From the NCBI GenBank assembly GCA_030427365.1, contig JAUHWW010000007.1:1-39546 (forward strand): DNA of 39,546 nucleotides, written 5' to 3'. Made by a program: the position numbers and the translations under genes. This DNA is from a bacterium. Its GTDB lineage: Bacteria > Patescibacteriota > Saccharimonadia > Saccharimonadales > SZUA-47. Below the pieces are notes generated by a model that did no database searches, was not told the DNA's origin, and worked only from the letters and a program-made list of their open reading frames with translations. Below are positions 16,199 to 39,546 of the stretch, one piece after another; position 1 is the first letter of the stretch, and every line of letters begins with the position of its first letter.

Positions 16199-16810
16199 AT
16201 GAAGAAAGAAGCAGGAGTAGCAGCTGGTGTTATCATCGCTGTTCTCGTTCTTATCGGGGCTGGAATCGGCCTATACTTTATAGCAACTAATGATGACGAT
16301 GAGGCAATGGAGCCAGAGACATCGCAGCAAGAAGTGTCTGAGCCGACACAAGAGGCTGAAGAAGAAACCGGCAGTAACATAGTCGAAACAGCGCAAGCAA
16401 CACCAAGCCTAAGTACCCTTGTCACTGCGGTTGTAGAAGCTGATCTAGCAGAGACGCTATCAGGCGATGGTCCGTTCACTGTACTTGCACCAGATAATGA
16501 TGCGTTTGCAGCAGCTATCGAAGAGCTCGACACGACTGCAGAAGAGCTGCTCGCACGTGAAGACCTCGCAGATATCCTCACCTACCACGTTATTGCAGGT
16601 AACGTGATGAGCTCAGACCTGGAAGATGGCGCGACCGTTGCGACGGTTCAGGGTGACACATTGACCGTCGAAATCACTGAAGAAGGTGTGTTCTTCGTCG
16701 ACCAGAATGACCGCAGAGCTATGGTGATGACAGCTGATATTGAGACCAGCAATGGTACCGTGCACATCATCGATAACGTCCTCTTGCCAGGCGACGGCAG
16801 CGGCGCGTAA
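16199..16810 (+). CDS. membrane-anchored fasciclin (FAS1) domain protein
   Basis: A 203-residue protein. A hydrophobic anchor at about 8-29, an acidic Glu/Thr linker to about 65, then one FAS1 domain. Its H1 motif is FTVLAPDNDAFAAAIEEL, the central LTYHVIAGNVMSSDL follows, and the H2-type end is NGTVHIIDNVLLP. FAS1 domains mediate adhesion to surfaces, cells or polysaccharide, so a role in host attachment is a fair inference for an epibiont. AGGAG lies about 6 nt before the ATG. It ends at a strong terminator. Confidence 0.92.
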   Translation: MKKEAGVAAGVIIAVLVLIGAGIGLYFIATNDDDEAMEPETSQQEVSEPTQEAEEETGSNIVETAQATPSLSTLVTAVVEADLAETLSGDGPFTVLAPDNDAFAAAIEELDTTAEELLAREDLADILTYHVIAGNVMSSDLEDGATVATVQGDTLTVEITEEGVFFVDQNDRRAMVMTADIETSNGTVHIIDNVLLPGDGSGA

Positions 16811-16867: not shown

Positions 16868-16872
16868 GTATT

Positions 16873-16902
16873 AAAAAGCCGACCCTTAGTTGGGTCGGCT
16901 TT
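16873..16902 (-). terminator. intrinsic terminator of the ncRNA-tRNA-small protein transcript
   Basis: An 11-bp stem (16875-16885 with 16892-16902) around a 6-nt loop. The U-run lies on the minus strand, so it ends transcription coming from the tRNA and the small protein gene. Confidence 0.85.
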
Positions 16903-16918
16903 GTTGAACTAGCTAGCT

Positions 16919-17068
16919 TCAAGCTAGGCTAGCGCACTCTTTGCACAATGACTTTCCGCCAGTGCCAGCACGCAGGTTTTCACGCTCAATATTGTTGCCT
17001 GTATTGCAATCAGTATTGTTGTGGTAAACCCACTGCTTGATAGAGTGCCAAGGTGAGCGTCTACCCAT
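16919..17068 (-). CDS. 49-residue Cys/His-rich small protein downstream of the tRNA
   Basis: It starts MGRRSPWHSIKQW. A compact metal-binding-like core follows: YHNNTDCNTGNNI, then GTGGKSLCKEC. One Cys, a CxxC pair and two His could make a zinc site. The TGNN...R.GTGGK.LC..C pattern looks conserved, but I cannot name a family; an HNH-like or zinc-ribbon fold is possible. The frame stays open upstream to an ATG at 17155 that uses the last A of the tRNA CCA (78 residues). That part forms hairpins and looks non-coding, so I prefer 17068, where only a weak GGGG precedes the ATG. It shares a transcript with the tRNA. Confidence 0.55.
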   Translation of the reverse strand: MGRRSPWHSIKQWVYHNNTDCNTGNNIERENLRAGTGGKSLCKECASLA

Positions 17069-17154
17069 GACTTGACCCCATTTAAATACTCTTACCAAGA
17101 GTTTAACGGAGAGTCGACCTACTCTCTCGTGAAGCATTACTATTAATGGCTTCA

Positions 17155-17232
17155 TGGGGTGACATACCGGATTCGAACCGGTGACCTTCTGGGATCCAGC
17201 CAGACGCTCTAACCAACTAAGCTAATGTCACC
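17155..17232 (-). tRNA. tRNA with G-1:C73 and anticodon GGA by position (anomalous)
   Basis: A complete cloverleaf on the minus strand. The acceptor is GTGACAT/ATGTCAC (17231-17225 with 17165-17159). The D-stem is GCTT/GAGC, the anticodon stem TCTGG/CCAGA, the variable loop AGGTC, and the T-arm ACCGG-TTCGAAT-CCGGT. Discriminator C73 and an encoded CCA (17157-17155) follow. G at 17232 can pair with C73, the hallmark of bacterial tRNA-His. The anticodon loop is CTGGATC, giving anticodon GGA (17197-17195), a serine anticodon. But the variable loop is short, unlike tRNA-Ser, and position 37 is U, whereas a purine is usual. It is either a divergent tRNA with unusual decoding or a tRNA used outside translation. 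Confidence 0.75.
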
Positions 17233-17236
17233 ATAT

Positions 17237-17418
17237 ATTGGGAAATAAAATAGACCCAATGGAGCGGTTATGAAAGGGCAACTACAAAGGTTTGTTGTTT
17301 ACACGCCTGGAGAGCGTGGACAATAAGCCCTTTGCATACCCGCACCATCGAGTCTATGACTCAAACACCTGATACTCCTTTGTAGTTTTTGTCTCTGCTT
17401 TTAAAGTACTTCCCCAGT
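17237..17418 (-). ncRNA. structured RNA with a predicted pseudoknot upstream of the tRNA
   Basis: The predicted start is about 17418, seven nt after a consensus -10. Helix A pairs 17386-17377 with 17290-17281 (10 bp, perfect). Helix B pairs 17346-17327 with 17279-17261 (about 17-18 bp with mismatches and one bulge). The order A-B-A'-B' makes them a pseudoknot or two mutually exclusive folds. Small hairpins fill the gaps: 17362-17350 (GAGUC/GACUC) and 17318-17302 (CACGC/GCGUG). A hairpin at 17260-17237 separates it from the tRNA. I could not match it to SRP RNA, tmRNA, RNase P RNA or a riboswitch class. It may be processed from the tRNA by RNase P. Confidence 0.55.
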
Positions 17419-17424
17419 GCCCTT

Positions 17425-17454
17425 ATTATATTGAAAAAAATGAAATATTGTCAA
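17425..17454 (-). promoter_or_regulatory. near-consensus sigma70-type promoter for the ncRNA-tRNA transcript
   Basis: TTGACA (17454-17449) and TATAAT (17430-17425) with an 18-nt spacer. It is the best promoter in the window, typical of stable RNA genes. Confidence 0.8.
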
Positions 17455-17464
17455 ATGCTGCGTA

Positions 17465-17560
17465 AAAGTAAAAAGCCTCCACAGATGTGAAGGCGTTTTA
17501 CTTGGATCCCAGAAGGGTTTTAAGCCGTAAAAACGGCTATTGCTATCCCTCACCAATAGA
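17465..17560 (-). ncRNA. small terminated RNA with 14-nt complementarity to the tRNA anticodon arm
   Basis: A predicted RNA of about 95 nt. It starts about 7 nt after a TATTAT box and ends at the hairpin 17494-17475 followed by UUUUU. It contains a small hairpin (AGCCG/CGGCU near 17522-17538) and an A-rich single-stranded stretch. In this stretch, 17516-17503 reads CCTTCTGGGATCCA, the exact complement of tRNA positions U33 to the variable loop (17198-17185). No function is known. A 64-residue frame crossing this region is probably fortuitous. Confidence 0.5.
17470..17494 (-). terminator. terminator of the small antisense RNA
   Basis: GCCUUCACA and UGUGGAGGC close over a tiny loop and are followed by UUUUU on the minus strand. 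It separates the small RNA from the next promoter. Confidence 0.8.
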
Positions 17561-17566
17561 GAAATA

Positions 17567-17595
17567 ATAATAGCAGTTCTTTTGCTTGTCGTCAA
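17567..17595 (-). promoter_or_regulatory. sigma70-type promoter of the small antisense RNA
   Basis: TTGACG (17595-17590) and TATTAT (17572-17567) with a 17-nt spacer on the minus strand. Confidence 0.65.
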
Positions 17596-17756: not shown

Positions 17757-19502
17757 CTAGTTATCCACTACTCTTATGCTTAATTCATCGAGTAGTTTTT
17801 CTTCGACTCGACTTGGGGAGCCGGTCATGACGTCGACACCTGAGCCGTTTTTCGGAAAAGCGATGACTTCGCGAATGTTATCTTCGCTCATCAGCTCCAT
17901 AAACATGCGGTCGATACCGAACGCGCAACCTGCATGCGGCGGTGCACCATATTTGAATGCACCGATCATGGCGCCAAACTTTTCGTTCACGTAAGCTTCG
18001 TCGTAGCCGAGCACACTAAAGGCCTTGTACATGACTTCTGGGCGGTGGTTTCGGACGCTACCCGAGCAAATTTCGTAGCCGTTCATCACCATGTCGTACT
18101 GATCCGCGACAATGTTTTCTTTGTCTTCTCTATCAAACGCTTCTGCGCCGCCTTTTGGCATTGAGAATGGGTTGTGACCAAAGTCAAGCTTGCCATCTTC
18201 TTCTTCGTAAAAAGGAAAGTCGACAATCCAGGCCAGTGCAACAACCTCAGGATCTTTGAGCTCAAGCACGTCACCAAAATGACTACGCAAATCACCAAGC
18301 ACTTTGTTGACGACTTTTCGCTCGTCGCTGCCAAAGAAAATCGTATCACCGTCTTTCGCCGCTGTTTTTTCGAGGATTTTTGCGAGGTCTTCATCACTGA
18401 AAAACTTTGCAATCGCCCCGCCGGCTTTACCGCCTTCTACTGTCATATATGGCAGACCACCGGCGCCGGATTTTTTGGCGCGTTCGGTGAGTTTATCAAT
18501 TTCTGAGCGGCTAAATGATTTACTTACGGCAATTGCTTTTACAGCGCCTCCCTTTTCTATCGCGCCGGAAAACACCCCAAAACCGCAGTTTTTTAGCTCA
18601 TCAGTAAGGTCGACGAGCTCCATCTCGTAGCGTAGATCTGGTTTGTCAGATCCAAAACGATCCATTGCTTCTTCGTACGGAATGCGTGGCACGTCGTCGA
18701 ACAACAATTTCTTGCCAGCAAAATCGGTCACGAGTGACTTTATGAGTGGCTCTGTCATTGAGCGAACGATTTCACCATCCTCAACAAACGACATTTCTAA
18801 GTCGAGCTGGTAGAACTCGCCATACAAACGATCGGCCCGAGGATCCTCGTCGCGGAAACACGTCGCCATCTGGTAATACCGTGGTACACCGCCAACCATC
18901 AACAGTTGCTTAAATTGCTGCGGTGCTTGCGGCAGCGCGTAAAACTGACCTGGGTGCAACCGTGAAGGCACCAGGAAGTCACGCGCTCCTTCTGGAGACG
19001 AGTTCGCCAAAATTGGTGTCGTCACTTCGGTAAATTCATTTTCTTCCATGAATGCGCGCATCATCGAAAAGTATTCGGCACGCTTTTTCAGCATGTGCTG
19101 CATCTTATCGCGCCTAAGATCGAGATAGCGATATTTCAGGCGATGTTCCTCTGATATGTTTTGATCTGAGTTCACCTGTATCGGCAAAGCTTCTGATGTG
19201 TTGAGCACGCGAATTGACTCGACCATAATTTCGACATCACCAGTCGGAATGTTTGGATTTTTAAGCTCTGCTGCTCGCTCAGCGACACTGCCGGTCGCCT
19301 CAATGACATACTCATCACGCAATCCTTCTGCCAGCGTGAAGCTGTCAGAATCAGCATCAATCGTGAGCTGCACAATTCCTTTATGATCACGCAGATCAAT
19401 AAAAATCAGGCCGCCATGATCGCGGCGTGAGTTCACCCACCCTTGCACGAGTACTTTTTCGCCTTTTTGTTTTGTCGTTTCAATAGATACTGTTCGTTTC
19501 AT
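17757..19502 (-). CDS. aspS: aspartyl-tRNA synthetase, bacterial type
   Basis: A class II aminoacyl-tRNA synthetase charging tRNA-Asp, 581 residues. The N-terminal OB anticodon domain reads VQGWVNSRRDHGGLIFIDLRDHKG. The flipping-loop region SPEGARDFLVPSR and PQAPQQFKQLLMVGG follow. Class II motif 2 is YQMATCFRDEDPRADR and motif 3 ends GIDRMFMELMSE. The bacterial GAD insertion lies between. Whether it also serves tRNA-Asn cannot be told. I prefer the ATG at 19502, preceded by GGGGA, over 19514, which has no ribosome site. The long leader at 19515-19620 can fold into an extended hairpin. Confidence 0.96.
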   Translation of the reverse strand: MKRTVSIETTKQKGEKVLVQGWVNSRRDHGGLIFIDLRDHKGIVQLTIDADSDSFTLAEGLRDEYVIEATGSVAERAAELKNPNIPTGDVEIMVESIRVLNTSEALPIQVNSDQNISEEHRLKYRYLDLRRDKMQHMLKKRAEYFSMMRAFMEENEFTEVTTPILANSSPEGARDFLVPSRLHPGQFYALPQAPQQFKQLLMVGGVPRYYQMATCFRDEDPRADRLYGEFYQLDLEMSFVEDGEIVRSMTEPLIKSLVTDFAGKKLLFDDVPRIPYEEAMDRFGSDKPDLRYEMELVDLTDELKNCGFGVFSGAIEKGGAVKAIAVSKSFSRSEIDKLTERAKKSGAGGLPYMTVEGGKAGGAIAKFFSDEDLAKILEKTAAKDGDTIFFGSDERKVVNKVLGDLRSHFGDVLELKDPEVVALAWIVDFPFYEEEDGKLDFGHNPFSMPKGGAEAFDREDKENIVADQYDMVMNGYEICSGSVRNHRPEVMYKAFSVLGYDEAYVNEKFGAMIGAFKYGAPPHAGCAFGIDRMFMELMSEDNIREVIAFPKNGSGVDVMTGSPSRVEEKLLDELSIRVVDN

Positions 19503-19514
19503 TGTAATCCCCAT

Positions 19515-26039: not shown

Positions 26040-26145
26040 CTTCTTTTCCTGCTCGGGAGACCGCTATTTCAGTTAGCGGGTGAACCAGCTCGGACTTTTA
26101 CCGTTGCGGCACAGCGCAGGAATTACACCTGACTTCCGGTTCGTT
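26040..26145 (-). ncRNA. cobalamin-riboswitch-like aptamer
   Basis: The core reads GCUGUGCCGCAACGGUAA (minus strand, about 26116-26099), very close to the B12-box consensus GCUGxCCCGCAACxGUAA. It is preceded by GGAA and a P3-like hairpin (26131-26117, with GGUG at the expected place) and followed by AGUCCGA. A P2-like helix pairs GAACC (26142-26138) with GGUUC (26086-26082). A 3' hairpin (26079-26061) could be the L13-type element. GCAGGAA (26052-26046) is complementary to the P3 strand 26122-26116, offering a switch. The GAAUACC consensus after AGUC is changed, so a variant ligand is possible. Confidence 0.6.
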
Positions 26146-26160
26146 TTTGTTTATTAACAC

Positions 26161-39472: not shown

Positions 39473-39518
39473 TGGCTCCGGAGTGAGAAAGTTCTGTGAA
39501 CTTTTGCAAGGGAGCCCG
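39473..39518. other. nested hairpin near the right edge
   Basis: An outer GGCTCC/GGAGCC pair encloses AAAGTTC-TGT-GAACTTT (7 bp). It could be an RNA element or terminator of a gene outside the window. No coding frame is visible in 39434-39546. Confidence 0.35.
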
Positions 39519-39546
39519 CTCTTGAAAACTAGTTTTTCATAGATGC

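Follow-up and report, generated by a model that had tools for sequence, protein, structure and literature searches.

Few natural tRNAs combine the identity of one amino acid with the anticodon of another, and in a review of the subject, those described from bacteria are of the Pro or the Sec/Cys type (PMC11415595). Established examples are the dual-identity tRNA-ProX molecules of Streptomyces and Kitasatospora and the Sec/Cys hybrids, and there are reports of other mismatched tRNAs (PMC11415595). The locus considered here carries a tRNA with the anticodon GGA that resembles tRNA-ProX in joining the body or identity of one amino acid to the anticodon of another, in being encoded by an extra gene beside a complete tRNA set, and in having an unusual residue in the anticodon loop (A33 in ProX, U37 in the GGA tRNA). 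The two differ in that ProX combines Pro with Ala, Asn or Thr, whereas the combination here is His with Ser and no extra synthetase gene adjoins the tRNA. The GGA tRNA is also found in one genome only and lies next to an antisense-like RNA. With bacterial tRNA-His(GUG), it shares an encoded G-1, C73, an encoded CCA, and a class-I cloverleaf; unlike tRNA-His, it has GGA in place of GUG and a U at position 37, and the genome keeps a separate, normal tRNA-His.

The arrangement of the locus also recalls two kinds of RNA pairs. As in type I toxin-antitoxin systems, a small RNA that has a promoter to itself is adjacent to a perfectly complementary partner (14 nt). Here, however, the partner is a tRNA rather than a toxin mRNA, the two are arranged in tandem on the same strand, and the nearby ORF belongs to a family of soluble Cys/His proteins instead of encoding a small toxic membrane protein. 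In E. coli, the spacer of a tRNA precursor sponges the sRNA RyhB. There too an sRNA pairs with a tRNA transcript, but the match described below is in the anticodon arm of the mature tRNA and not in a spacer. A non-exhaustive search of the openly licensed literature returned no description of a His/Ser hybrid tRNA or of such a tRNA paired with an antisense RNA. The explanation of the locus that we favor, tentatively, is that a lineage-specific tRNA of hybrid identity has its anticodon arm masked by an accompanying antisense sRNA, with the neighboring protein gene as a passenger. If this is true, a bacterium with a reduced genome would offer a natural example of control over mistranslation or tRNA supply through base pairing to the anticodon itself.

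Organization of the cassette and its leader RNA

The window, meaning the whole stretch of DNA that was analyzed (39,546 nt), is an entire contig (C36) of a 935-kb genome in 40 contigs, and its gene content is that of an ordinary chromosome. An AdoCbl-II (cobalamin) riboswitch aptamer is present at positions 26081-26153 of the minus strand, with a score above the gathering cut-off. The cassette sits on the minus strand between the gene for AspRS (17757-19514) and a convergent fasciclin gene (16199-16810) and consists, in order, of promoter 1, a terminated RNA of ~90 nt, promoter 2, a rod with the option of a pseudoknot, the tRNA, an ORF of 49 residues, and a terminator (Table 1). A sequence-only reading had listed these parts, and all of them are present on this strand where it had placed them. 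Its description of promoter 2 as near-consensus is too weak, the match being perfect.

Table 1. Positions in the window of the predicted features of the cassette, and further copies of a separate structured element (positions within the named loci)
Feature	Position	Strand	Basis
Promoter 1 (predicted), TTGACG-17-TATTAT, TG before the -10 element, 10/12	17567..17595	-	consensus scan
Predicted sRNA, ~90 nt, strong terminator hairpin at its end	17466..17560	-	fold z -4.9 vs shuffles; terminator
Antisense stretch of the sRNA, CCTTCTGGGATCCA, perfect complement of the tRNA anticodon arm	17503..17516	-	inverted-repeat search, simulation
Promoter 2 (predicted), TTGACA-18-TATAAT, 12/12	17425..17454	-	consensus scan
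Structured leader RNA upstream of the tRNA	17232..17418	-	fold z -5.1 for the whole
Class-I tRNA, 77 nt plus encoded G-1 (17232), C73, encoded CCA, anticodon GGA, loop CUGGAUC (U37)	17155..17232	-	ARAGORN, Rfam
Anticodon-arm stretch of the tRNA, TGGATCCCAGAAGG, matched by the sRNA	17185..17198	-	inverted-repeat search, simulation
Spacer between tRNA and ORF, three small hairpins	17069..17154	-	fold z -2.3
Gene for the 49-residue Cys/His protein	16919..17068 (coding 16922-17068, stop to 16919)	-	ORF, conserved family
Terminator 3' of the ORF	16872..16903	-	inverted repeat and T run
Further copies of the tRNA-associated element	L010:1342-1439, L020:1352-1450, L019:1254-1352, L029:1805-1902, L016:1648-1749, L055:1647-1742		

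Promoter 2 is the only perfect match in the window, and none arose in 100 shuffles. Across the genome, there are 22 perfect matches of the TTGACA/TATAAT type compared with none in the reversed control, so this organism does use the perfect consensus. As a perfect sigma-70 promoter, promoter 2 would drive transcription of a precursor, and RNase P and 3' processing would then free the tRNA.

The rod (17244-17358) has a folding energy of -51.9 kcal/mol and a z score of -7.9 against shuffles, and the two arms of the pseudoknot (17280-17290 and 17377-17387) pair at 11 of 11 positions, as expected of the pseudoknot-capable RNA in the sequence-only reading. A repeat origin of the rod was rejected, as it has no second match in the genome, and its covariance model identified no locus beyond its own in 393 genomes. 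A search with an 18-mer from the 3' strand of the pseudoknot gave no match, and a loose pattern for the 5' strand gave 120 matches, all unrelated. Against the 4227 families of Rfam, the tRNA alone passes the gathering cut-off, with all scores for the sRNA and the rod far below it; identities as 6S RNA or tmRNA were rejected on the wrong layout and the absence of an Rfam match. The rod leader may serve as an element for processing or stability. We also observed that the 5' strand of the pseudoknot contains AAAGGAG (17381-17375), followed 6 nt on by a 4-codon ORF starting with GTG, and that a 26-codon ORF starting with ATG (17348-17268, minus strand) crosses the rod. On this sequence, a leader peptide or masking of a Shine-Dalgarno site within the leader RNA (17268-17381, minus strand) is possible.

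The tRNA and its identity

ARAGORN and Rfam concur on a full cloverleaf for positions 17155-17231. ARAGORN labels the tRNA as Ser from its anticodon, and the short variable arm places it in class I. We rejected an identity as tRNA-Ser(GGA): the molecule is of class I with a short variable arm and has C73 instead of G73, and the normal class-II gene is found elsewhere (locus L064). A reading of the anticodon loop as Ile(GAU) was likewise rejected, since it needs a 9-nt loop without U33, as was a tRNA intron, the cloverleaf being complete. The rest of the genome encodes class-II tRNA-Ser (GGA, GCU, UGA, and CGA) and tRNA-His(GUG), all normal, and the tRNA set is complete; the class-I GGA tRNA is therefore an extra gene. 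Its body is about equally near to tRNA-Ala(GGC) and to tRNA-His.

The ends of the tRNA are of the His type. Among tRNAs from the source genome, its relatives, and phages, G-1 together with C73 occurs in 12/12 tRNA-His and in no isoacceptor other than the class-I GGA tRNA, whose seven "Ser" entries in the sample are one gene seen in several loci. The G-1:C73 pair is a determinant of His identity in bacteria, and this identity depends partly on the anticodon as well (PMC9976931). The oddness that the sequence-only reading had remarked on comes down to His-type ends with a Ser anticodon for UCC and UCU and with U37, that is, the identity elements of one amino acid combined with the anticodon of another. 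By established identity rules, HisRS would charge a tRNA with such an acceptor end with histidine; because the anticodon contributes to His identity, this charging may be weak. On ribosomes, the charged tRNA would place His at Ser codons, although insertion would probably be poor because of U37. In 15 ORFs of the window, UCU and UCC together account for ~1.4% of all codons, so even weak use of the tRNA would touch most proteins.

Position 37 is a purine in 126 of 128 distinct tRNAs, and the GGA tRNA is one of the two with a pyrimidine. The other is a phage tRNA, which was retrieved by a search for the loop CUGGAUC itself. This class-I tRNA, from the phage contig IMGVR_UViG_3300037424_001375 (L116:2283-2358), has the same loop, GGA anticodon, and U37; its ends are not His-like.

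Complementarity between the sRNA and the anticodon arm

The sRNA contains a stretch of 14 nt that is perfectly complementary to the anticodon arm of the tRNA, as the sequence-only reading had noticed. In the predicted fold, this stretch is in the linker between two sRNA hairpins, and the terminator stem (17494-17475) lies within an inverted repeat with 18-nt arms. At spacings of 30-600 nt, no perfect inverted repeat in the window is longer than these 14-nt arms, and the runner-up has 12 nt. When upstream DNA was simulated with a first-order Markov model and compared with the real tRNA, a 14-nt complement arose in 0 of 5000 runs and the longest was usually 6-8 nt. The complementarity is not due to chance. 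Other complements of 13-14 nt, found among 105 tRNAs with their flanks, are in near-universal T-arm sequence. Folding the sRNA and the tRNA together gains ~11 kcal/mol and keeps the sRNA terminator.

Because the match is statistically real and falls on the anticodon arm, an antisense or capture relation between the two RNAs is plausible, and it is plausible from sequence that the sRNA captures or regulates the tRNA by antisense pairing. The upstream sRNA would expose its 14 nt, anneal to the tRNA or its precursor, and so block folding, modification, or use. Weighing against this antisense reading are the restriction to one genome, with covariation and conservation absent, and a U37 that is unfavorable for decoding. 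A bolder form, in which the locus is an RNA-only toxin-antitoxin system or stress switch, would have the His-charged, Ser-misreading tRNA as the harmful component and the sRNA over its anticodon arm as the antidote, making Ser-to-His mistranslation switchable; we consider this quite unlikely.

Some of the same observations could be explained by an extra tRNA, duplicated or horizontally acquired, that is decaying with a non-decoding loop, its 14-nt inverted copy having arisen by a template-switch mutation and without any regulation. U37 and a loop absent from other cellular tRNAs would fit such decay, as would a body that mixes features close to Ala(GGC) and His, the restriction of the locus to one genome, and the sharp ends of the 14-nt match. 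However, the cloverleaf stems, G-1:C73, and the encoded CCA are all intact and promoter 2 is perfect, features that decay would soon erode. We regard decay as a somewhat unlikely account, ranking below antisense masking.

It is also conceivable that the direction is reversed and that the tRNA or its precursor acts as a sponge, capturing the sRNA and releasing other targets of the sRNA. The strong promoter on the tRNA side and the stability of the duplex agree with this, but the genome has no second exact copy of the 14-mer and, at up to two mismatches, no further target except one site with two mismatches, which makes a sponge improbable.

Distribution of the cassette and its protein

The family members whose AspRS loci were examined keep AspRS but have neither a tRNA nor the cassette there. 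The DNA next to AspRS differs in each relative examined, judging by gene contents read from sequence; the slot is variable, and its occupation by the cassette is lineage-specific. A blastn search of the cassette against 60 relatives matched only tRNA sequence, and searches of phages and plasmids likewise gave tRNA matches only, the best annotated one being a phage tRNA-His. The rod and the tRNA were found in no other Saccharibacteria genome among those searched. Accordingly, these genomes yielded no locus that retains the tRNA without its companions, which would speak against a joint cassette, and none with all parts together, which would speak for it. A pattern for the class-I GGA tRNA is absent from 246 other genomes of the order, and a tighter pattern requiring pyrimidines also at positions 37 and 38 had 0 matches in 84,980 species genomes; a class-I GGA tRNA is present in two IMG/VR contigs.

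Anticodon arms are frequent targets of integrases. The 14-bp inverted repeats might accordingly be attachment or crossover sites, with the intervening 300 bp inserted or inverted, and a slot between AspRS and the fasciclin gene that is filled by different DNA in relatives would suit a recombination scar or invertible segment of this kind. Yet the 14-bp copies are inverted rather than direct, and a first look at the window ORFs revealed no recombinase; we consider this origin very unlikely.

The ORF downstream of the tRNA belongs to a real, conserved family with the consensus PWHSIK..VHHNNT.CNTGNNIERENLR.GTGGKPLC.EC (~50 residues), a mean column identity of 69% over 21 sequences, and invariant H8, H16, C21, C42, and C45; the Cys/His character given to it in the sequence-only reading is borne out. 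The family has a wide and patchy range that includes Alphaproteobacteria, Bacteroidota, Patescibacteria, and contigs of the viral collection. Its 20 other loci (L122-L135, L096-L100, and L070) are in 14 genomes, 5 viral-collection contigs, and 1 Saccharibacteria genome, and none of them has a tRNA near the family gene, apart from one tRNA-Arg ~1.4 kb off. Linkage of protein and tRNA is therefore local to the source genome, and a function directed at tRNA is unlikely. No family in Pfam or NCBIfam names the protein, the sole PHROG match is a marginal one to HNH from one relative (E 0.059), and the structure model has a pLDDT of 51. We read the gene as a passenger that belongs to a widespread, unnamed family.

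These results bear on the proposal of joint action by the sRNA, the pseudoknot RNA, the tRNA, and a protein responsible for cutting or modifying the tRNA. The single strand, tight packing, and shared terminator of the cassette would suit such cooperation, and an antisense or capture link between sRNA and tRNA is plausible, as discussed above. The protein, however, falls outside the matched set: its family lives without the tRNA in 20 loci, and no known nuclease or modification family matches it. Joint action of all four parts is highly improbable, and we place it last, with antisense masking favored over decay of the tRNA, a sponge, a recombination scar, and this four-part arrangement, in that order.

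A separate family of tRNA-associated elements

While testing the complements in tRNA flanks, we observed that partial tRNA copies occur beside many tRNA genes, where they adjoin a structured element of ~98 nt. One copy is in the window (39479-39546, plus strand, cut by the contig end), clear of the cassette. With a model based on six copies, 18 copies were identified in the source genome, and of 31 genomes of the order, 23 have the element; it has no match in Rfam. A tRNA is located within 400 nt of the locus centre for 21 of 30 fetched copies, compared with ~4% expected, and this count is a lower bound in that several loci are cut by contig ends. In an alignment of 46 distinct copies fitted to the structure, pairing holds in 95.6% of cells, and both sides have changed in 28 of 32 pairs, with shuffled and slid controls falling far below these values; a MAFFT alignment of six sequences already had 24/32 such pairs. 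Direct repeats of 15-53 nt flank 20 of 32 copies, whereas repeats at control spots never exceed 10 nt. The repeats are mostly tRNA sequence and abut the element exactly. From these sequence features, the family probably consists of small, structured mobile elements that use the D-arm or T-loop sequences of tRNAs as insertion sites. In addition, the 3' part of a tRNA and the terminator region downstream of it are duplicated 150-400 nt off in the human-gut phage MT835493.1 (L118:1497-1975) and in a Saccharibacteria genome (L046:1737-1918).
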